Assembly (NCBI GenBank): GCA_031260965.1
Contig: JAISKK010000041.1
Location: 1-42,670 of the forward strand
Length of the DNA stretch: 42,670 nt
DNA from: Desulfovibrio sp.
GTDB lineage: Bacteria > Desulfobacterota > Desulfovibrionia > Desulfovibrionales > Desulfovibrionaceae
Direction of reading: 5' to 3'
Both the position numbers and the translations under genes were made by a program. The notes beneath the pieces were generated by a model. The model was not told where the DNA came from. It worked only from the letters and a program-made list of their open reading frames with translations, and made no database searches. Shown piece after piece: positions 4,219 to 17,334 of this stretch. How positions within the stretch are numbered: the stretch's first letter is position 1; each line of letters begins with the position of its first letter.

Positions 4219-4319
4219 GCTATGATCTGACCTCTTTCAACGCGGACATGGGAGAATGAAGGGCGGCATTGTATTCGGGCAGATCGCGTGTTAATAAACG
4301 ACAGCCGGGGGTAAGCGCT

Positions 4320-7300
4320 ATGTCGATTCGCATAAGAGCTGTTCTCACCATCGTTATAATTTCCGTAATAATCATTCTTTTCGGCATCGGGTCCGGTCTG
4401 TTTTTTGTCCAGAGCTATCTTGAAAAGAGCATTGCGAGCGATATGACTGCTGTGGCTGATGTCGCGGACAAATTTGTCAGCAGTCAGATTGATCTGCTCA
4501 AATCAGATGTCTCTGAAGCGGCGCAACAGTTATTTGATTCGTCCGACGAAGACCTGCAAAGAGTTTTGCAGAAGCAGGTCGAAGCCCACGAGACAATCCT
4601 CGCCCTGACGGTTTTTGACCGCAACGGCGAGATTGTAAGAGCGTACGGAACAGCGCCGATGCCCGCCGAGCTTGTCAACAGCGACTATGTACAAAGAGCT
4701 TTCGCCGGTGAGGAGGTTATTTCCACCACCAGACAAGATTCGAGCGGGAAGCTTGTCTTATATGTCTGTTTGCCGATGGGAAAAGGTGTTATATCCGCAA
4801 CCGTTTCAGGCATGTTTTTCAGCGACCTGCTGTCCACGGTCAGAATATGGGATACAGGGCATCTTTTTATTTTGGACGCCGAGGGGACAATTCTGGCCAA
4901 TATACGCCCCAACTGGGTTTTGGAGCGCTACAATTTTATCGACAAAGCGAAAACGGACAGCCGCTATGCTGATATCGCCGCTACCGCCAGCCGCATGATT
5001 AAAGGAGAGCGGGGATCGGGACGCTTTACCGTGGAAGGCAAGGAACGGCTTTGCGTCTATGTGCCGATCACAGGCTCAAAGGTCGGATGGACCTTGGCCG
5101 TTGTCGCTCCGCTGGGGGAAAGTCCGATCCATGATGTGCGCAACGGGCTGTTGCTGGTCGGGCTGGTGTGCCTGTTGCTGAGCGTTGGGGCTGCCTTTGT
5201 CGCTTCCGCTATCCTGGAAAGACCCTATGAAACAATAAAGGGGCTGGTCGCGACGCTGGAAGCGAAGGGCAAGCTCCTGTATACAATCAACGAGGCGGCT
5301 GCGATATTGCTGGGGACGGAAACGGATAATTTTGCGGACAACATCCACAAGTGCCTGGAGATGGTGGCGCGATGCGCGGGTGTGGATCGAATGCGCATCT
5401 GGAAAAATTATACCATGGAGGGTGAACTGTATTGTTCACAATTATATGGATGGTCGGAGGGAGAATACGCGCAGGAGGGAGAAAATATTACGCGTGATGT
5501 CCGCTACAGAGACGACCTCCACGGATGGGAACAAAAACTTGTCGCTGGACAATCTATAAACAGTATCGCCGGCGCGTTTTCCCCCAAGGAACAGGCGACG
5601 CTGTCAGCGCAGGGGATTTTCTCCATTCTGGTTATCCCTGTGTTTTGCCAGGAAAGTTTTTGGGGATTTGTTTGTTTTCACGATTGCCGTAAAGAACGTA
5701 TATTTTCCGAAGATGACGAGAATTTGTTGCGTTCCGGCGGAATGCTGATTGTCAATGCCATACTGCGCAATGAAATGACGCATGATCTTGTCCGAGCGCG
5801 GGAGGAAGCGCTTGCCAGCGCTGAGGTGAAAGGCGATTTTCTGGCCAATATGAGCCATGAGATGCGCACGCCGCTCAACGCGATTATCGGACTCTCGGAG
5901 CTGACGCTTGATTCCGGGGAGGTGGAGGGGATTGCGCGGGAAAATCTGGAGAAAGTATATAGTTCGGGAGTATCGCTGCTCACTCTCATCAATGATATTC
6001 TGGACATATCGAAAATTGAGGCCGGAAAATTTGACCTCATCCCGGTCATCTACAGCACGCCGAGCCTGATCAACGATACCAGCGCCCTGAACATTGTGCG
6101 GATTGGCGTGAGGCCCCTTGCCTTTCATCTGGATATAGACGGGACCATACCGAGCAGGCTTTTTGGAGATGAATTGCGCGTCAAGCAGATTTTTAATAAT
6201 CTTCTGAGCAATGCCTTCAAATACACGATGGAAGGCAGGGTTGACTGGAGCATTTCCTGTGAGCAGGACGGCGATGATGTGTGGCTGGTTTCTTGTGTCA
6301 AAGACAGTGGTATAGGCATTCGCCCGGAGGATATAAAAAAGCTTTTCTCCGAATACAACCAGGTGGATACGAAAAGCAACCGCAGGATTGAGGGTACCGG
6401 ACTGGGCCTTTCCATCTGCAAAAGCCTGGTGGAGAAGATGGATGGAACGATTGACGTTGTAAGCGAGTATGGAAAAGGCAGCACATTTACGGTGCGCATC
6501 CGGCAGGGCAGGGTAAACTGTGCCCCGATTGGCGTGGAAGTCGCTGAGAATCTCAAAAACTTTCATTTCAGCGAACATAAGCGGGATCGCAGCGCAAAGC
6601 TGGTGCGCAAGCAGATGCCTTACGCAAGAGTGCTGGTTGTGGATGACGTGCCGACCAATCTGGATGTTGCCAGAGGCATGATGAAACCCTACGGGATGCA
6701 AATCGACTGCGCATCCAGCGGTCCCGCCGCCATTGAGCTGATTCGTAAAGCCGAGGTTACATATAACGCGATCTTTATGGATCACATGATGCCGGGCATG
6801 GACGGCATGGAGGCCACCCGGATCATACGTGAGGAAATCGGGACAGAGTACGCGAAAAACATACCTGTTATCGCTCTTACCGCAAACGCCATTGTCGGGA
6901 ATGAAGAGATGTTCCTGCGCAACGGATTTCAGGCCTTTCTCGCCAAGCCCATCGATATTATGCGCATGGATATTGTCATCAATCACTGGATTCGGAATAA
7001 AGATCTGGAAGAAAAGTTCTCCGCAGGCATGCAGGGCGACCAAAACACGCTGGACAGGCGCGGTGAGAAAGACAGAAGAAGCGGTATTGAAAGGAGAAAC
7101 GATCTTGACAGAAGGCAGCAGGCCGGTGGATTAAGCAGCAAAGGGCTTGACTTTGAACAGGGCTTGAAGCGTTTTGGCGGTGACGAGGAAATTTATCTGG
7201 ATGTTTTGCAATCCTATGCGCAAAATACGCCGTCTCTGCTGGAACAGTTGCGAGGATGCACGCGGGAAAGCCTGCCGGACTATGCGATTGTCGTGCACGG

Positions 7301-7694
7301 GCTGAAAAGCAGCAGCCTCAGCATCGGCGCGGAGAAGATCGGGGCACTGGCCAAGGATCTGGAATTTGCGGCCAAAGCCGGCGATTTTGCCTTTGTCGAT
7401 GCCAAAAACAATGAGTTGATCGGGGCAACGCAAATTTTGCTCGCAGCTTTGTCCGCCATGCTGCGGGATATTGCGGCCGAAAATCCCAAGCCCCAAAAAG
7501 CGGAACCGGACGCGGAGGTGCTGGCCGCTTTGCAACAAGCCTGCGAAAGCTTTGATATTGACGAAGTGGACAAGGCCATGGAGGAGCTGGAAAGCTACGC
7601 CTATGAATCTTGCGGCGAACTGGTGGAATGGTTGCGGAGCCAGGTAAATGTATTGGGCTTCAAGCAGATCGCAGAACGTTTGGAGCAGAAATAA
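4320..7694 (+). CDS. membrane hybrid sensor histidine kinase (Cache-GAF-HisKA-HATPase-REC-Hpt)
   Basis: 1124-aa phosphorelay kinase. TM1 is at about 8-30, an extracytoplasmic Cache-like sensor at 31-272 and TM2 at about 273-297. A GAF-like domain follows (about 335-485), then HisKA with His513 in NMSHEMRTPL. The ATPase domain has DSGIGI and GTGLGL motifs (about 610-728). A receiver follows with Asp821 in FMDHMMPGMDG and the Lys in LAKP. A short linker with repeated DRR groups leads to an Hpt domain with His993 in VVHGLKSSS. Start ATG 4320 is chosen because the hydrophobic segment follows at once; upstream frame has only TTG. The HD-GYP regulator starts 32 bp after its stop and is the probable output partner. 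Confidence 0.93.
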   Translation: MSIRIRAVLTIVIISVIIILFGIGSGLFFVQSYLEKSIASDMTAVADVADKFVSSQIDLLKSDVSEAAQQLFDSSDEDLQRVLQKQVEAHETILALTVFDRNGEIVRAYGTAPMPAELVNSDYVQRAFAGEEVISTTRQDSSGKLVLYVCLPMGKGVISATVSGMFFSDLLSTVRIWDTGHLFILDAEGTILANIRPNWVLERYNFIDKAKTDSRYADIAATASRMIKGERGSGRFTVEGKERLCVYVPITGSKVGWTLAVVAPLGESPIHDVRNGLLLVGLVCLLLSVGAAFVASAILERPYETIKGLVATLEAKGKLLYTINEAAAILLGTETDNFADNIHKCLEMVARCAGVDRMRIWKNYTMEGELYCSQLYGWSEGEYAQEGENITRDVRYRDDLHGWEQKLVAGQSINSIAGAFSPKEQATLSAQGIFSILVIPVFCQESFWGFVCFHDCRKERIFSEDDENLLRSGGMLIVNAILRNEMTHDLVRAREEALASAEVKGDFLANMSHEMRTPLNAIIGLSELTLDSGEVEGIARENLEKVYSSGVSLLTLINDILDISKIEAGKFDLIPVIYSTPSLINDTSALNIVRIGVRPLAFHLDIDGTIPSRLFGDELRVKQIFNNLLSNAFKYTMEGRVDWSISCEQDGDDVWLVSCVKDSGIGIRPEDIKKLFSEYNQVDTKSNRRIEGTGLGLSICKSLVEKMDGTIDVVSEYGKGSTFTVRIRQGRVNCAPIGVEVAENLKNFHFSEHKRDRSAKLVRKQMPYARVLVVDDVPTNLDVARGMMKPYGMQIDCASSGPAAIELIRKAEVTYNAIFMDHMMPGMDGMEATRIIREEIGTEYAKNIPVIALTANAIVGNEEMFLRNGFQAFLAKPIDIMRMDIVINHWIRNKDLEEKFSAGMQGDQNTLDRRGEKDRRSGIERRNDLDRRQQAGGLSSKGLDFEQGLKRFGGDEEIYLDVLQSYAQNTPSLLEQLRGCTRESLPDYAIVVHGLKSSSLSIGAEKIGALAKDLEFAAKAGDFAFVDAKNNELIGATQILLAALSAMLRDIAAENPKPQKAEPDAEVLAALQQACESFDIDEVDKAMEELESYAYESCGELVEWLRSQVNVLGFKQIAERLEQK

Positions 7695-7726
7695 AAATTT
7701 GCGCATATAGCGAGGGGAGAAATTTT

Positions 7727-8968
7727 ATGAAAAGCATCGCGACAGAACAGGCCAGGCCGGGGCAGATATTGGGGCGGCAAATTTTGAGCGGAGATGGAGT
7801 TTTATTGGCCGGACAGGGGGAAGCGATTACGGAAAATCTTTTGCAGGTGTTGAAGCGTCTGAAAATTGAAAATATTGTCATCGCGGACAGTGAGCGTAAA
7901 AAAGTTCTGCTTGTTGATGATAACATGACGAACCTGACCACCGGCAAAGACATGCTTAAAGATCAATACAAGGTTTACCCGGTTCCATCGGCCGAGATCA
8001 TGTTTGACTTGCTGGGTAATATCATCCCGGATCTGATTTTACTGGATATCGAAATGCCGGTAATGAACGGCTATGAGGCCATCAAACGCTTGAAAAGCAA
8101 GCCTGACTGGGCGGAAATACCAGTTATATTCCTTACCTCCAAAACAGATGAGGGGAGCGAACTGGAAGGACTGAGTCTCGGCGCGATTGATTATGTCGCC
8201 AAACCCTTTTCCGCTCCGCTGTTACTCAAGCGTATTGAGAACCATCTTTTCAGCGCAATGCAGAAAAAGCAGTTGAAGGCGTTCAACACCAGCCTGGAGG
8301 AGATGGTACACCAGAAAACCGCGGAGGTATTCAATCTGCAAAACGCGGTGCTGGGTACGGTAGCTGATCTGGTTGAATTTCGCGACGATGTGACGGGAGG
8401 GCACATCACCCGCACGCAAAAATATCTGGAGATCCTGCTGGACAAGTTGGTTGAGGAAAAAATTTATGCGGATGAAGTGTCCGGCTGGGATATGGAGCAT
8501 CTGCTGCCTTCGGCCCAGCTCCACGATGTCGGCAAAATCGGGATCAGCGATATGATACTGAACAAACCGGGGAAACTCACCCCGGAAGAGTTTAAAATTA
8601 TGCAGGGCCATGTGGCGATCGGGGTGGAGGCCATCAAAAAGATTGAGCAGAAAACGACGGAACATGCTTTTTTGCGCCATGCGGGGCGAATTGCCGGCAC
8701 ACACCATGAAAAATGGGATGGCAGCGGCTATCCCGATGGGCTGAGTGGAGAGAATATTCCCCTGGAAGGGCGTCTGATGGCTATCGCCGACGTGTATGAC
8801 GCGTTGATCTCGGTCCGTCCCTACAAGAGGCCGTTCAGCGCCGATGAAGCGAGGCAGATCATCGAAGACGGAAAGGGCACCCATTTCGACCCCGTGCTGG
8901 TCGATGTGTTTTCAAAGGTGGCCAACAAGTTCGCGGAGGTCGCCAAAAAGGAGCAGGGCGTCCAATAG
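7727..8968 (+). CDS. response regulator with HD-GYP c-di-GMP phosphodiesterase domain
   Basis: 413-aa cytoplasmic protein. Residues 1-50 form the short module often found at the N-terminus of HD-GYP proteins (ARPGQILGRQIL...GDGVLLAGQG). A receiver follows, with the phospho-Asp in LLDIEMPVMNG and the Lys in VAKPF. After a coiled linker comes the HD-GYP domain, with HDVGK and HHEKWDGSGYPDG both intact, so c-di-GMP hydrolysis is expected. Start ATG 7727 has GAGGGGAG upstream. It is likely co-transcribed with the hybrid kinase and could receive phosphate from its Hpt domain; pairing is inferred from adjacency. Confidence 0.93.
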   Translation: MKSIATEQARPGQILGRQILSGDGVLLAGQGEAITENLLQVLKRLKIENIVIADSERKKVLLVDDNMTNLTTGKDMLKDQYKVYPVPSAEIMFDLLGNIIPDLILLDIEMPVMNGYEAIKRLKSKPDWAEIPVIFLTSKTDEGSELEGLSLGAIDYVAKPFSAPLLLKRIENHLFSAMQKKQLKAFNTSLEEMVHQKTAEVFNLQNAVLGTVADLVEFRDDVTGGHITRTQKYLEILLDKLVEEKIYADEVSGWDMEHLLPSAQLHDVGKIGISDMILNKPGKLTPEEFKIMQGHVAIGVEAIKKIEQKTTEHAFLRHAGRIAGTHHEKWDGSGYPDGLSGENIPLEGRLMAIADVYDALISVRPYKRPFSADEARQIIEDGKGTHFDPVLVDVFSKVANKFAEVAKKEQGVQ

Positions 8969-10449: not shown

Positions 10450-10971
10450 TTATTTAAGCCTGTCGTGCAGGGCCTCCAGACCGGCCAGGGCCGCGCTCAT
10501 GCGGATGTCGTCCCGGTAGCCGGTAAAATTACGGCGGAAAGAGGAGATAACCGGTCCTTTGGCAGGGCTGCCGAACGCTTGGGACATGTAGGCTATGGTC
10601 GAGATCCAGACCGTGCCCACGGGTTTTTCCGCTGTGCCTCCCTCCGGTCCGGCAATGCCGCTGATGGCCAGGCCGACCGTGGCCCCGGTAGCCTGCAAGA
10701 CCCCGGCGGCCATGGCTTCAACCACCGCCTCGCTTACCGAGCCGTGTTCCTCGATCAGACCCTTGTCCACATTGAGCAGACGGGTTTTAAGATAATCGGC
10801 GTAGGTCACCAGACCGCCGCAAAACCATTTCGAACTGCCCGGAACATTGGTGCACAATACCGAAACCAGACCGCCGGTGCAGGATTCGGCGACACACATG
10901 AACATATTTCTGGAGATAAGCCGCCGGCTGATATTGCCGATGAGCCATAGACCTTCTTCTGGAAATTCCAT
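10450..10971 (-). CDS. pncC: nicotinamide-nucleotide amidase (PncC/CinA C-terminal domain)
   Basis: 173-aa stand-alone CinA C-terminal domain protein, which deamidates nicotinamide mononucleotide to nicotinic acid mononucleotide in NAD recycling. Family motifs are AESCTGGLVS (with the nucleophilic Ser region), GGLVTYADYLK and ISGIAGPEGGTAEKPVGTV. The N-terminal CinA (COG1058) domain is absent, as is normal for PncC. Start ATG 10971 is chosen from homologue length; its ribosome site is weak, and upstream in-frame ATGs at 11007 and 11070 would run into the divergent gene. It is divergent from the binding-protein fusion gene, with 55 bp between starts. Confidence 0.9.
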   Translation of the reverse strand: MEFPEEGLWLIGNISRRLISRNMFMCVAESCTGGLVSVLCTNVPGSSKWFCGGLVTYADYLKTRLLNVDKGLIEEHGSVSEAVVEAMAAGVLQATGATVGLAISGIAGPEGGTAEKPVGTVWISTIAYMSQAFGSPAKGPVISSFRRNFTGYRDDIRMSAALAGLEALHDRLK

Positions 10972-11026
10972 ACAATATGCCCCGATGATCAAAAAGCCGC
11001 TTTTCATTTTTGCAAAGGAGAATGTG

Positions 11027-12322
11027 ATGCGGCAAATATTTCCTTTTACTTTACTATCTTGCGCCGGCATAAATCAAGCCCCCTTTTCCGGGTCAAAAGA
11101 TAAGCACAGCAGATGCCCTTCCTCAATCTGGCGCAAGGCTTTGCTGCCCTGCTCCCGAATCCTTCCGGCTGCAATGCTCGCACTTTCTGCGGCGATCTTT
11201 TTTTGCCTTGCTCCCCCTGTTTTTGCAACGGCCGCGCCCCTGCGCGTGGTTTACGGCTTTGACCGGGAATTCCCTCCATTCTCTTACGAGGAACCGGGCG
11301 GGCAGGCGGCCGGCTTTGAAATCGAACTGGTGGAAGCCGTTTTTCACGACTCCGGCGCGAGCATCGTCCATCGCCCCCTGCTTTGGGACCGCATCGGCCT
11401 TGAGCTTGGAAACGGCAGCATCAACCTGACCACGGGAATGGTGCAGACGGAGCAGAGGTCCAGGCTCTATCTTTTTTCGGACGCGCCCACCTTTCGTCTG
11501 CCCATTCGCGTGTTCACCAAGACTTACGGCCGTTTCCCCAGCTTGAGCCTGCTGCGCGGGCAGTCGGTGTCCGTGGAGCAGGGCAGCTACCCGGCTACCC
11601 TTCTGGAGGAATACAGGGGTTTCAACATCAAGCCCTTCGCAAACCGGGGGGATGCCGTGCGCGCCCTCTACAACGACGAGGTTCAGGCCTATTGTGGTCC
11701 GGTTCCGAACACGTATTACATCGTCAACACCCGCAATTACGGGGCCATAACCAGCATGGGCGCCCCCCTGGGCATTACGGAACTCAGAGTCGCTTTCAAC
11801 CGGGAGAGGGGAGACATCCAGCGCGTCTTTAATGAAGGCTTGAAGCGGGTCATCGATTCCGGGGAATATAACCGCATCTACCGGAAATGGTTTGTGCGCG
11901 AACTCAAGGATCAGGAAGAAAATTTGCTGCTCAAAAGCGCGACAACGGCTACTGTGGCGGCCTATGCTCCTTACGGAGGCAGCGGGCAGGGCGCGGCCGT
12001 GCTTACGGCTACGGGCAAGGTCTACGCGGCTTGCAACATGGAGAACGCGGACCCGCTCTTAAACCTCTCCGCCCTGCGCGCGGCGGTCGCCATGGCCGTC
12101 ACGGCGGGTGAATATGAACTGCGCGCCGCCGTGCTGGTGGACCAGGATGGAAGTATAGTCCGGCCGGGACCGGAGGACCTGCAAACCCTGGGTGAATTCG
12201 GGAGTGGAGTGCTGATTGTCGTCGGCAGGGAACAAAACCGCTCCGCCACAAAGATGATCGCGGAAATTACGCCGAACATCGTAAGGCGGGAGATGAAGTT
12301 GCTGCCGCGGGCAAAGCCCTGA
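11027..12322 (+). CDS. periplasmic solute-binding (family 3) protein fused to a degenerate cytidine-deaminase domain
   Basis: 431 aa. A hydrophobic export segment is at about 47-64, ending near FATAA. An SBP_bac_3-type domain (about 72-292) follows, beginning LRVVYGFDREFPPFSY, with the usual GMVQTEQR and IDSGEYNRIYRKWF patterns. Residues about 300-405 align without gaps to much of bacterial cytidine deaminase: AAYAPYGG, GAAVLTATGKVY, CNMENA. The ribose-binding N and E of the CNxEN motif are kept, but the zinc/catalytic residues are replaced: Cys by Ser348, Glu by Leu350, and the two Cys of PCGAC by Gly381 and Asp384. The tail is therefore probably a non-catalytic binding module. ATG 11027 has AAGGAG upstream; an internal ATG in front of the hydrophobic segment is an alternative. 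Confidence 0.82.
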   Translation: MRQIFPFTLLSCAGINQAPFSGSKDKHSRCPSSIWRKALLPCSRILPAAMLALSAAIFFCLAPPVFATAAPLRVVYGFDREFPPFSYEEPGGQAAGFEIELVEAVFHDSGASIVHRPLLWDRIGLELGNGSINLTTGMVQTEQRSRLYLFSDAPTFRLPIRVFTKTYGRFPSLSLLRGQSVSVEQGSYPATLLEEYRGFNIKPFANRGDAVRALYNDEVQAYCGPVPNTYYIVNTRNYGAITSMGAPLGITELRVAFNRERGDIQRVFNEGLKRVIDSGEYNRIYRKWFVRELKDQEENLLLKSATTATVAAYAPYGGSGQGAAVLTATGKVYAACNMENADPLLNLSALRAAVAMAVTAGEYELRAAVLVDQDGSIVRPGPEDLQTLGEFGSGVLIVVGREQNRSATKMIAEITPNIVRREMKLLPRAKP

Positions 12323-12349: not shown

Positions 12350-13374
12350 ATGCACTTTTCCCTGGTCAAGCTCAATCCGCCTGAAAGTCAGCCGTCGCAC
12401 GGCTTCGACGATGTGATCCTGCCCCTGTTTCATGCTTTGTCGCGCCTTGGCTACAAGGCCGAGATCCTTTTCAATCGCGTCAACCCGAAGAGCCGGAACA
12501 TCGTCTTCGGTTCCTGCATAAGCCCCGCCCGGGCCGGGCGCATGTTGCCGCCGGGCAGCATCATTTTCAATCTGGAGCAGATCAGCCCGGACAGCAAGTG
12601 GTGCAACGCCCAGTATCTGGCCCAGTTGCGCGCTTTTTCCGTCTGGGACTACAGCGGGGCCAACATCGACGCTCTGCGCCGGCATGGAGTGCGGGATCTT
12701 ACCCATGTCCCGCTTGCCTATGTGCCGGAAATGACGCGGCTCAAGCCCGAATATCCCCAGGATGTGGATGCGCTTTTTTACGGGCTGATCACAGAGCGGC
12801 GTGATGTTGCCATCCGCGCCCTGCATGGGGCGGGCGTGCATATTCTGGCCAGCCAGGACGCATTTGGGGATTTGCGCGACAAGCTTTTGGCCCATTCCCG
12901 CCTGGTCCTGAACATTCATCATTTCGTCCCGGCCCGGCTTGAAATCGTGCGTCTCGGCTATGTCTGGGCCAATAAAAAAGCCGTCGTCTCGGAGCGTGGA
13001 GCGGATACCGAAGTGCCGGCACATCTGGAAGAAGCCTGCCTGTGTACGCTCCTTATGAAGAGCTTGGCGAGGCTGTGCCGGGGCTTCTGGCCGACAAAAG
13101 ACGCCTGGAAAAAACAGCCGCTACGGGTTTTGCCGCCTTCACTTCCCTGCGCCTGGAAGATTGTCTGGAAAAGATTGTCGGACGCAGAAATATTTCTCCG
13201 GGTCAGGCTTTGGCACGGAGTGCAGAGGGCGGAGGGGAAGAAAATCTGACAAAAACCGCGTCAGCGCCCGGACCTTTGCGGGAGGCGCCTTTCTATGCCC
13301 GGCCTTCCCCGGAATGGCTGATTCACGGCGACGGGGCAGATCACGGCGACCAGTCGCCGATCGCTCCTTCGTAA
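12350..13374 (+). pseudogene. glycosyltransferase-like protein (CgeB/family 1 type) with a frameshift
   Basis: The first frame (from ATG 12350) gives a coherent protein, MHFSLVKLNPPESQPSHGF through SERGADTEVPAHLEEAC, resembling bacterial glycosyltransferases with a CgeB-like C-terminal half. After about 13040 it becomes a meaningless basic peptide ending at 13249. In the next frame the expected continuation appears: VYAPYEELGEAVPGLLADKR, followed by LEKTAATGFAAFTSLRLEDC, typical of this family's C-terminus, ending at 13374. Adding one base near 13040 would restore EACLVYAPYEEL. It is either a real mutation or a sequencing error. The gene starts 28 bp after the binding-protein fusion and may share its transcript. 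Confidence 0.7.
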
Positions 13375-13553: not shown

Positions 13554-15212
13554 TTACAGCGCAGGGCTAAGGCCTTTGCCGAGGATTTTGTTCAGCAGGA
13601 AGAGGGGCAGCAGCACGCTCAGGATCAGCACCGCGCCGTAGGCCGAGGCCGGACCGAAATCCCCGCTTCCGATGTACTGGAAGACCTGCACGGTCATCGT
13701 GGTCCAGGGGCCGTAATAGAGAACAATGGTCGAACTCAGCTCCGCCAGAATAGTCACCCACATGATGATCGCCCCGGCGATAATCCCCGGCAGCATGGCC
13801 GGTACCACCACCTTGAGGAAAGACTTGAGGGGCGGAACCCCAAGGCTGATGGAGGCCTCCTCCACAGACTCCTCGATCTGCTGTAAAAGGGCGGAGGTGG
13901 TTTTGACGGAAAAGGGCGTCTTGCGCACAAAATAGGCCAGGACCAGGATCATCCAGGTCCCCGTCAGGACGATGGGGCCGCTGTTGTAAGTGGCTGCCAG
14001 GGCGATGCCCAGCACCGACCCGGCAATGATGAGAGGCAGCATCATGGCCAGATCCAGCACATAGGCGGAGATGCCTTTTTTGCGCACAATCAGATAGCTG
14101 ACCAGCATTCCGAAGACCATCCCGATGCAGGTGGCCGTTGTGGAGAGAAAGAAGGAATTGAAAATGGGCCGGGGCGCGACCTGCAGAGCGGCTTTCAGGT
14201 TGTCCAGGCTGAAATGCCCGTAATACATGACCGGACCTCTGCTTTCCGTTATTGAGGCTGCCAGGATTACGGCAAAGGGAGCCAGGGCGAGGATGAGAAG
14301 CAGGGCGCAGAAGCTGAACGCCGCCAGGGTCAGGGGGCGGGAAAGCTTGTGGATCTCGGGCGGGCGCAGGGCGGACATGGCGTAACTCTTTCTTTCCACC
14401 AGGCTTTTCTGCAAAATTGTTATGCCCAGGGTGATGAGCACCAGGATGGAACTCAGGGCTCCGGCCATGGACGGGTTTCCACCCATCTCATTCATGAATT
14501 CGCTGTAGGCCTGTTCGGCCAGCACCTTGAAATCGCCGCCGATAATTGTCGGCACCCCGAAATTTTCTATGGACATGCAGAAGACCATAAGCCCGCCCGC
14601 GGCAATCGAAGGGCTGATCAGGGGCAAAGTGACAGTGTAAAAGACCCGTAGGGGACCGGCCCCCAGGTTGCGCGCCGATTCCTCCAGGGAGCGGTCCACG
14701 GAATTGATGGCCGCCGCGACCATAAGAAAGACAAAGGGGAAAAATTGCAGGGTGAAGACCATAACCACGCCCTGCCAGCCGGCTATGCCCGGAAAATCAA
14801 TACCCAGATCCGCGAGCAGACGCGTGATGAAACCGCTGCGGCCGAGCATGAGCAGCCAGGCCTCCGCCCCGATGAAGGTGGGCAGGATCAGTGGCAGGGT
14901 TCCAAGAGTACGCAGGGTGTTGGTAAAGGGCAGCTTGAAGCGGGTGATGAAAAAGGCGAAGGGCGCTCCGAGGAGAATGCTGAACAGGGTGGCCATAAAA
15001 CTCATAAAAATGCTGTTGCCCAGGCACTTCAGGTAAAATGAGCTTTTAAAGACCAGGTAATAGTGTTTGAGGGTGAATTCGCCGGGTGCATCGCCCGCGA
15101 AACTGGCCATAAAAATGGAGAACATCGGATAAACAATGAGAAAAAAGAGCACGGCCAGGGCGGACAGGAAAATGCAGTTCCAGGAGCTGAAAAGCCGCGA
15201 GATCCGGTTCAT
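13554..15212 (-). CDS. ferric iron ABC transporter, fused permease (FbpB/AfuB type)
   Basis: 552-aa inner-membrane permease made of two tandem BPD_transp_1 halves, about 12 hydrophobic segments in total. The cytoplasmic EAA loops that dock on the ATPase are visible twice: EESARNLGAGPLRVFYTVTL in the first half and EEASISLGVPPLKSFLKVVV in the second. This duplicated architecture is typical of ferric-iron (Fbp/Afu/Hit) and related 2-aminoethylphosphonate systems. Start ATG 15212 overlaps the ATPase stop by ATGA, so the two are translationally coupled. It is the last gene of the operon and is followed by an intergenic repeat copy. Confidence 0.9.
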   Translation of the reverse strand: MNRISRLFSSWNCIFLSALAVLFFLIVYPMFSIFMASFAGDAPGEFTLKHYYLVFKSSFYLKCLGNSIFMSFMATLFSILLGAPFAFFITRFKLPFTNTLRTLGTLPLILPTFIGAEAWLLMLGRSGFITRLLADLGIDFPGIAGWQGVVMVFTLQFFPFVFLMVAAAINSVDRSLEESARNLGAGPLRVFYTVTLPLISPSIAAGGLMVFCMSIENFGVPTIIGGDFKVLAEQAYSEFMNEMGGNPSMAGALSSILVLITLGITILQKSLVERKSYAMSALRPPEIHKLSRPLTLAAFSFCALLLILALAPFAVILAASITESRGPVMYYGHFSLDNLKAALQVAPRPIFNSFFLSTTATCIGMVFGMLVSYLIVRKKGISAYVLDLAMMLPLIIAGSVLGIALAATYNSGPIVLTGTWMILVLAYFVRKTPFSVKTTSALLQQIEESVEEASISLGVPPLKSFLKVVVPAMLPGIIAGAIIMWVTILAELSSTIVLYYGPWTTMTVQVFQYIGSGDFGPASAYGAVLILSVLLPLFLLNKILGKGLSPAL

Positions 15213-16261
15213 TCCCTGATTACCACCGGGCGGCGCGGGGCGAAGCACAAATCCAGACTTTCCCCCTCCTCCCGCAAACGGTCGCATTTGGCGGCGCTGA
15301 AGCGCACCCGCATGACGCAGCCCAGAGCCTCCACCGCATAGATTACATCCGCGCCAGAAAATATTGCCTCCTGTACCACGGCCCGGAAGCGGTTTTGGGA
15401 AACTCCGTCTTTGGCTTCTTCAATCCAGTCCGGGCGTAGCATAAGGGTGAAGGGCGGAGGCGGGGTCGGGCCGATGTCCAGAAAGAGCGGCATTTCGGCA
15501 ATACGGACCGCATTTTCCTGGTCCAAATCCGCCTCTGCCCGCAACAGGGCGCAGGCGCCCATAAACTCGGCCGTGAAAGTGTTCGCCGGCTGAAAATATA
15601 TGTCTCTGGGCCGTCCCACCTGTTGCAGTCTGCCCCCGGAGAGGATGGCGATGCGGTCGGAAACGGCCATGGCTTCTTCCTGATCATGGGTGACATAGAT
15701 TGTGGTGATGCCGAAGCCCTTCTGGATGCGCCGGATCTCCTCGCGCATATCCACCCTGAGTTTGGCGTCCAGGTTGGAGAGAGGCTCGTCCATGAGCAGC
15801 ACTTCCGGGCGGATCACCAGGGCGCGGGCCAGGGCCACGCGTTGCTGCTGGCCGCCGGAGAGCTGGCGGGGGTAGCGTTCGGCGAAGCCGTCCAGATGCA
15901 CACTGCGCAGGATGTCCTCGACCCTGGTCTTGATTGCGGGCGCGGGTTCTTTGCGGGCCTTCAAGCCGTAAGCGACATTGTCAAAAACCGTGAGATGCGG
16001 GAAAAGGGCGTAGTTCTGGAAGACCATGCCGCATTCCCGGCGGTGGGGCGGCGTTTTGACGATAGATTTATCGCCGAAGCGGATGTCCCCGCCGTCCGGC
16101 GCGGTAAAGCCCGCGAGCATACGCAGCAGGGTGGTTTTGCCGCAACCGCTCGGACCAAGCAAAGTGAAGAATTCACCATCCGCGACGCTTAAACTGATGT
16201 GATCGACAACGGCATGATCGGCGAATTTTTTTACCAGATTGTCAAGAACGATTGCGGCCAT
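15209..16261 (-). CDS. ferric iron ABC transporter ATPase (FbpC/AfuC type)
   Basis: 350-aa ATP-binding subunit that powers import through the fused permease. Walker A is GPSGCGKTTLL, the signature LSGGQQQRVALARAL, Walker B VLLMDEPLSNLD, and the switch His is in VTHDQEEA. About 110 C-terminal residues form a TOBE-like regulatory region, as in the MalK/FbpC/PotA group. Start ATG 16261 lies five bases after the binding-protein stop, with GGAGAAG upstream. Iron specificity is inferred from the set of three genes and not from the ATPase itself. Confidence 0.92.
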   Translation of the reverse strand: MAAIVLDNLVKKFADHAVVDHISLSVADGEFFTLLGPSGCGKTTLLRMLAGFTAPDGGDIRFGDKSIVKTPPHRRECGMVFQNYALFPHLTVFDNVAYGLKARKEPAPAIKTRVEDILRSVHLDGFAERYPRQLSGGQQQRVALARALVIRPEVLLMDEPLSNLDAKLRVDMREEIRRIQKGFGITTIYVTHDQEEAMAVSDRIAILSGGRLQQVGRPRDIYFQPANTFTAEFMGACALLRAEADLDQENAVRIAEMPLFLDIGPTPPPPFTLMLRPDWIEEAKDGVSQNRFRAVVQEAIFSGADVIYAVEALGCVMRVRFSAAKCDRLREEGESLDLCFAPRRPVVIRE

Positions 16262-16266
16262 TAAGT

Positions 16267-17253
16267 TTACTTCTTCTCCAGCACAAGCTCCCGCCATTTG
16301 CCGAGCAGTTCTTTTTGCAGGGCATTGGCTTCGCCGGGGTTGAAATCCAAGGTACACAGTTCCGACAAAGGAGGCAGCCCCGGCACGTTGAGGGCGTCGG
16401 AGCGGGCCGGGCGGCGGTATTGCATCTGGTAAATTTCTGAAACTACATCGCGCGAGATCAGATAATCAAAAAAGGCCTGCGCCTCTTTGGCGTTTTTGCC
16501 GCCTTTGACCAGAGCCAGGCCCTCCGGGGCGGAGATCGCTCCGTCCGTCGGGTAAATAATCTTTACCGCGTCCGTGCCGCCGGCCACATAACGGTAAGCG
16601 GCGTATTCCATGGTGATGCCCACGGGGAATTCGCCCTCGGCCGTACCCTTGTAAACCAGACTCGATCCGTCCAGGATGCGGACATTCCCAACCAGTTTGC
16701 GTACGCCTTCCCATCCGTAAAGTTTATAGATGCCGTAAAGCTGGGCATAGGAGGATCCGGATTTGGCAGGGTCGGCCATCACTACCTTGCCTTTCCATTT
16801 GGGGTCGAGGATGTCGGCCCAACTCTTCGGCAGGTCCGCTTCCTTGACCAGTCTGGTGTTGGCCATCAGGATCATGATCTGGGTGTTGCTGGCCGTCCAG
16901 ATTTTGTCCGGGGCGACGAAAGCAGGGGAAGTCGCGGCAAGTTGTCTGGCTTCCGGGGAATCATAGGGGGTGAAATTGTCTCTGGCCGACTCAAGCACAG
17001 CTACATCGCCGCTCCAGAAAATGTCCGCCAGGGGATTGTTTTTTTCCGCCGCCAGCCGTTTCATGGCCTCGCCCGTGCCCAAACGCACGGCCGTAACCCT
17101 GATGCCGCTTTGTTTTTCAAAACCTTTGCTCACCATATCGATGAGTTCGGGCTGATTGGAGGAATAGAGCACCACATCCGCTGCTTGCGCGGTCTGAGTG
17201 AAGACGAGAAGAAAAAGCGCGGACAGGGCCAAAAAAGTTTTCCTGAAAAACAT
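16267..17253 (-). CDS. ferric iron ABC transporter periplasmic binding protein (FbpA/AfuA type)
   Basis: 328-aa exported binding protein with a clear signal peptide, FLALSALFLLVF then TQAQAADVVLYSS-like cleavage (TAQAADVV). The mature N-terminus VVLYSSNQPELIDMVSKGF and the segment LADIFWSGDVAVLESAR match extracellular solute-binding family 1 proteins of ferric uptake systems. The iron-liganding tyrosine pair expected in FbpA may correspond to EYAAYRY (adjacent tyrosines), though this needs alignment. Start ATG 17253 has GAGG upstream; ATG 17280 would only lengthen the signal. First gene of the operon. No convincing Fur box was seen upstream, so iron regulation is not shown. A 2-aminoethylphosphonate binder is an alternative. 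Confidence 0.87.
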   Translation of the reverse strand: MFFRKTFLALSALFLLVFTQTAQAADVVLYSSNQPELIDMVSKGFEKQSGIRVTAVRLGTGEAMKRLAAEKNNPLADIFWSGDVAVLESARDNFTPYDSPEARQLAATSPAFVAPDKIWTASNTQIMILMANTRLVKEADLPKSWADILDPKWKGKVVMADPAKSGSSYAQLYGIYKLYGWEGVRKLVGNVRILDGSSLVYKGTAEGEFPVGITMEYAAYRYVAGGTDAVKIIYPTDGAISAPEGLALVKGGKNAKEAQAFFDYLISRDVVSEIYQMQYRRPARSDALNVPGLPPLSELCTLDFNPGEANALQKELLGKWRELVLEKK

Positions 17254-17334
17254 GGACGTACCTCGGTTGTTTGATTTCAAAATAGTAGGGAAGAAGCTAT
17301 TGCATTATGGGGTAAATTGCCAGACTTAACCAGT

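Follow-up and report, generated by a model that had tools for sequence, protein, structure and literature searches.

A conserved fusion of a predicted exported binding domain to a cytidine deaminase domain that has lost its zinc site

What might a cell do with a cytidine deaminase (CDA) fold that has lost its zinc ligands and is joined to a binding protein that looks exported? The question is raised by an ORF in the window, by which we mean the whole stretch of 42,670 nucleotides of Desulfovibrio sp. DNA (contig JAISKK010000041.1) that was analysed. A preliminary description made from the letters alone read this ORF as a family-3 periplasmic binding domain (SBP) fused to a catalytically dead CDA, proposed a two-site periplasmic sensor or scavenger whose deaminase fold binds a nucleoside-like ligand without processing it, and named homologues of the two-domain architecture and their gene neighborhoods as a check. 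The reading we tentatively prefer, with a probability a little over 0.4, is that of a non-transport periplasmic binding or sensor protein in which the dead domain would assemble a tetramer. The features are as follows, with counts out of 121 being rows of a protein search, among the matches listed.

10450..11070, minus strand: cinA (PF02464), divergent neighbor of the fusion gene
11027..12322, plus strand: SBP_bac_3 plus pseudo-cytidine deaminase fusion gene for a protein of 431 aa, with an uncertain start codon
11141..11233, plus strand: predicted signal-peptide region, residues 39-69, a hydrophobic core and then small residues (sequence and hydrophobicity test, not SignalP)
11249..11893, plus strand: Venus-flytrap domain SBP_bac_3, residues 75-289
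11456..11458, plus strand: Arg144, equivalent of GlnBP Arg75, kept in 117/121 listed rows
11699..11701, plus strand: Pro225 at the position of GlnBP Asp157, which is Asp or Glu in 0/121 listed rows
11909..12277, plus strand: pseudo-T-CDA domain, residues 295-417
11972..11974, plus strand: Tyr316 at the position of a tyrosine with a reported role in CDA tetramer stability, present in 121/121 listed rows
12035..12046, plus strand: Asn337-Met-Glu339-Asn340, remnant of the ribose-binding motif
12068..12076, plus strand: Ser348-Ala-Leu350 replacing Cys53-Ala-Glu55, where Ser/Thr opens a predicted helix
12167..12178, plus strand: Gly381-Pro-Glu-Asp384 replacing Cys86-x-x-Cys89, where much of the family has a capping-box-like S/T-x-x-D/E
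12182..12196, plus strand: Gln386 and Glu390, equivalents of CDA Gln91 and Glu95 (listed interface residues), retained in 116/121 and 119/121 listed rows, respectively

Architecture and spread of the fusion

The N-terminal domain scores above the Pfam cut-off for PF00497 and has the Venus-flytrap fold, and the C-terminal domain has the full-length fold of a tetrameric-type CDA (T-CDA), with bounds drawn at residues 296-376 by Pfam and 295-417 by NCBIfam. The monomer model of the two-domain protein has a pLDDT of 94.3 and a pTM of 0.90, and the join is short in it, the last SBP helix ending at residue 289 and the first CDA helix beginning at 295. The fusion and the deaminase fold that had been described are supported. 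Chance similarity to CDA and SBP was considered as an explanation and is rejected on the domain, alignment and fold evidence. Export is predicted, as it had been before, from a hydrophobic N-terminal core followed by small residues that recurs in 107 of 112 motif-anchored family rows (out of 154, the other 42 being set aside). No kinase domain was found in the fusion chain, the ORF stops after the CDA domain, and the chain does not join a transmembrane helix to a kinase in the manner of kinase-linked flytrap sensors.

The protein search scored 7997 candidates and found 201 proteins, of which the best 120 are listed, and precomputed Pfam assignments place both domains in all 120 of those, one being the window's own protein. 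Within the class, a match at E = 1e-20 or better occurs in 50 of 348 genomes; three of them (G314, G061 and G021) match the SBP part only, which leaves 47/348 with the fusion. One further full fusion lies outside the class in G362, a genome of the same phylum and a different family. Carriers with names include Desulfovibrio cuneatus and Halodesulfovibrio spirochaetisodalis. Another precomputed Pfam family, PF26947, is also seen here, and it occurs as well on P0124, an ordinary CDA. The observation is confirmed, and this is a conserved family, not a single odd gene. Among the matches listed in the literature searched by title and start of abstract, no SBP-deaminase fusion is described. The family is of interest because many Desulfovibrionaceae conserve this pseudoenzyme, whose predicted compartment is unexpected. 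It also carries a warning for annotation, in that an above-cut-off Pfam deaminase call and the source name 'cytidine deaminase' attach to proteins that have neither the zinc ligands nor the catalytic acid.

Descent of the deaminase domain and loss of the zinc site

For the class we aligned 44 of the 47 copies, leaving out G182 and G235 as partial or split and G206 as lying in a larger stretch. The three Cys zinc ligands and the catalytic Glu of T-CDA (Cys53, Cys86, Cys89 and Glu55) are invariant in 41 T-CDA rows, 40 of them different, and not one is found in the dead domain, with 0/44 class copies at each position (0/176 cells), 0/4 in G362, 0/4 in the window protein, and absence in 121/121 rows of the protein search, among the matches listed. 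The loss that the preliminary description had noticed in one protein (with Ser348, Leu350, Gly381 and Asp384 there) recurs in every aligned copy. The place of the catalytic Glu is taken by a hydrophobic residue, usually Leu.

As to which CDA this was, hhalign of the dead-domain profile gives 99.9% probability and E = 1.6e-34 over 123 columns against T-CDA, whereas the broken C-terminal domain of the dimeric CDA gives 97.7% and 2.5e-12 over 63 columns. Because the T-CDA match is far stronger, the ancestry is assigned to T-CDA, and the broken half of a dimeric CDA is rejected as the source. A tree was built from the 41 T-CDA rows and 20 dead ones, the latter being G362 and 19 of the 44 class copies. 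All the dead domains in it fall into a single clade with support 100/98, and G362 branches first among them with support 91/80.

Selection was measured in ten close pairs (six among four genomes), for which both parts had to stay below 0.25 in dN and below 0.85 in dS; distant pairs were saturated, with values up to 1.4, and were excluded. The dead domain has omega values of 0.09-0.33 and the SBP domain values of 0.06-0.14, so purifying selection acts on the dead domain in these pairs. Recent decay is rejected, because the loss is shared by every aligned copy and the close pairs are under purifying selection.

How does the fold stand without its metal? Among the matches listed, Ser or Thr stands at the Cys53 position in 121/121 rows, Asp or Glu at the Cys89 position in 120/121, and one of Ser, Thr, Gly, Asp and Asn at the Cys86 position in 94/121. 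In the model these former zinc positions stand at the starts of helices 349-359 and 382-390, and S/T-x-x-D/E is a helix capping box. Going by the model, Ser/Thr and Asp/Glu at the two helix starts probably stabilize the fold without metal, and the capping residues would have taken over the structural role of zinc.

The dead domain is the sole PF08211 match in the window's assembly (G000), where no standalone cytidine deaminase was found. Another CDA match occurs in 0/47 fusion genomes and in 53/301 remaining genomes, a weak negative association in which 32 of the 53 belong to one genus. Some other CDAs met on the way have arrangements of their own. In order-mates, L115:918-2081, L116:5601-6635 and L117:1679-3229 encode CDAs of the dimeric type with an intact HAE...PCGYC first domain and an apparent signal peptide, and these are possibly exported active deaminases. 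An active-type CDA (CAE, PCGAC) lies C-terminal to another domain, presumably GrpB-like, in L112:4239-5564 and L113:2747-3961, and in L118:3973-5316 and L119:5561-6970 an active-type CDA is fused to a second domain that we take to be a nucleoside phosphorylase.

Retained residues, ligands and neighboring genes

If the domain no longer catalyzes, the residues it keeps may tell what it does. The available text of a T. brucei CDA paper (PMC6686228) lists residues for substrate contact (F24, N42, E44, Y48, A54, F124) and for quaternary structure (Y21, S22, R90, Q91, E95, L120), and we mapped both sets by motif, accepting an aromatic or His at 24 and an aromatic at 48 and 124. In the 44 copies the quaternary residues are kept in 190/264 cells and the substrate residues in 119/264; in the 121 rows, among the matches listed, the figures are 489/726 and 268/726. 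G362 has 6/6 substrate residues and 5/6 quaternary residues, with Ile at L120. The window protein has 3/6 of each, Asn337, Glu339 and Ala349 for Asn42, Glu44 and Ala54, and Y316, Q386 and E390 on the quaternary side, and so exhibits no contrast in itself; both stacking aromatics are lost. Judged by these residues, the nucleoside cradle appears intact in G362 and much of it lost in the Desulfovibrionaceae copies. From the retention counts it seems that the pocket was lost after catalysis was, and that across the family, though not in the window protein, assembly residues have been retained at a higher rate.

The first alternative to weigh is that the dead domain is a second site that binds a nucleoside-like compound without turnover, so that the protein reads two ligands, a serious rival that we nonetheless place on the unlikely side. 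G362, the first branch, fits it well, having the whole substrate set with the catalytic set gone. So do the high counts for Glu44 (42/44 copies, 120/121 rows) and Ala54 (42/44 and 121/121), the rows being among the matches listed, and so do L050, L052 and L053, which keep 4/5 scored pocket residues. Loss of Tyr48 means little, because its substrate contact runs via its NH group in the available text of PMC6686228. The stacking positions count against it, with position 24 aromatic or His in 3/44 copies, position 124 aromatic in 5/44, and both at 0 in the 121 rows among the matches listed, and so does the hydrophobic residue where the catalytic Glu was. Nucleoside binding as first proposed is weakly supported for the window protein and suits G362 better.

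A second alternative has the dead domain as a monomeric rigid appendage, either a cap that stabilizes the binding domain or a face on which a partner docks. The confident two-domain model and the purifying selection would suit this, as would the modest retention of S22 (22/44 copies) and R90 (19/44). Tyr21, Gln91 and Glu95, kept in 38, 35 and 40 of the 44, would be unneeded by a monomer if their published role carries over, and we consider the appendage unlikely.

On the side of the binding domain, the canonical amino-acid site consists of an Arg and an Asp, for which GlnBP Arg75 and Asp157 are presumably the holders of the ligand carboxylate and amino group, respectively. The fusion keeps the Arg and has lost the Asp, and for that reason we infer that the ligand is a carboxylate compound other than a standard alpha-amino acid. 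The best sequence matches of the fusion among solved structures are transport-type SBPs, a point against the sensor reading. In a tree of 39 rows, containing 18 fusion SBPs, six E. coli transport SBPs, and domains of long sensor ORFs, the fusion SBPs group with the sensor-protein domains, apart from the six transport SBPs (100/99 on the branch), in a sample biased towards this grouping by the choice of sensor rows as matches to G362 or the window protein. Nine of the 12 sensor-group loci have HisKA or HATPase, and three, cut by the locus end, have PAS. The G061 SBP (L067) sits inside the fusion clade without a dead domain, so the domain may have been lost in that lineage.

The third alternative is an ordinary transport SBP that feeds an ABC permease encoded elsewhere and carries the deaminase as a passenger. 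The SBP_bac_3 fold with its retained ligand Arg speaks for it, and HEQRo permeases are present in 7/11 fusion genomes of one survey and in 7/13 fusion carriers among 15 congeners, which makes transport possible in those genomes. An ABC importer also lies at 13554-17280, 1.2 kb downstream on the opposite strand, with an SBP_bac_6 protein of its own. Against it, homologues of glnP, artQ and hisM were found in 0/43 loci, in fetched flanks of varying length, and a HEQRo permease was found neither near the window protein nor in its assembly (95.66% complete, 164 contigs), nor in five congeners with the fusion (G183, G184, G187, G190, G192), nor in the single contig of G362. The absent amino-group Asp also counts against it, and we regard plain transport as very unlikely. 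As between sensor and scavenger, the sensor is the part we favor, because no family-3 permease was found in the 43 flanks, the window genome, the five congeners or G362.

Comparison of neighborhoods turned up a recurrent companion and no revealing partner. A cinA homologue lies within 2 kb in 31/43 other loci, 11/43 have a glucokinase gene in the 1 kb after the fusion, and neither suggests a mechanism; a chemoreceptor gene follows the fusion in just 4/43, and no conserved signaling-gene neighbor was found in the 43 loci. In G362 the fusion gene is L133:8483-9655, and the ORFs adjoining it are, we assume from their appearance, dnaN and dnaA. In the window, 4269-8968, which lies about 2 kb upstream of the fusion gene, holds a hybrid histidine kinase (Cache, GAF, receiver and a weak Hpt below cut-off) and, after it, a receiver-HD-GYP gene. 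Downstream, at 12350-13374, an ORF without a Pfam hit overlaps an ORF in another frame that resembles its continuation, possibly a frameshift. Besides the fusion, PF00497 has three matches in the window genome. One is in a hybrid kinase that carries two such domains, and the remaining two share an ORF that is truncated at the end of its contig.

Proposed function and known systems

The reading as a tetrameric, non-transport binding or sensor protein would run as follows. The protein would be exported to the periplasm, where the flytrap would close on a small carboxylate-bearing ligand while the dead domain would hold copies together as true T-CDAs do, its fold kept stable metal-free by the capping-type residues at the former zinc positions; with ligand bound, the protein would dock on a membrane signaling partner encoded elsewhere. 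Some SBPs activate sensor kinases in trans, according to the available text of PMC11113362. The higher retention of quaternary residues across the family is indirect support for the tetramer. Against a scaffold stands the equal count of the two sets in the window protein; Gln91 and Glu95 also adjoin the old zinc site and could be retained for folding instead. A pure scaffold does not explain why Glu44, the ribose ligand of true CDAs, and Ala54 are kept, and by sequence this retention favors ligand binding over the tetramer. The interpretation first offered is, all told, partly supported.

A longer history can be imagined, and we hold it as doubtful. A salvage enzyme would have been captured by an exported SBP, would have lost its metal and acid with the cradle still kept, as in G362, and would then have become a metal-free tetramerization hub with four flytraps facing membrane sensors. 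If true, this would be a new receptor architecture, and the surviving copies, which suggest that metal and catalytic acid were lost ahead of much of the substrate pocket, would record the steps of the conversion. Reuse of an enzyme fold in a sensor can be tested in this family.

Several known systems come near to this protein in one part or another. T-CDAs such as those of B. subtilis and human have the zinc ligands and catalytic Glu that the fusion is without, and the fusion differs further in its added binding domain and predicted signal peptide. GlnH, ArtJ and HisJ, the family-3 ABC SBPs, have the fold and ligand Arg in common with its SBP domain, whereas the fusion has Pro for the amino-group Asp, an extra domain, and no cognate permease found nearby or in the assembly. 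The cyclohexadienyl dehydratase half of certain fusions with chorismate mutase has an SBP-like fold. Those fusions are likewise exported but, in the available text of PMC10520331, both of their halves are active enzymes, unlike the present case. The Venus-flytrap sensor domains of histidine kinases (PDB 3h7m) differ in that the domain here is soluble, without transmembrane or kinase parts. Another is the broken C-terminal domain of the E. coli dimeric CDA, which by the available text of PMC6686228 is likewise a CDA fold without a zinc site of its own and forms part of a dimer; its profile match to the dead domain is much weaker than that of T-CDA, and the zinc site would appear to have been lost independently in the two.
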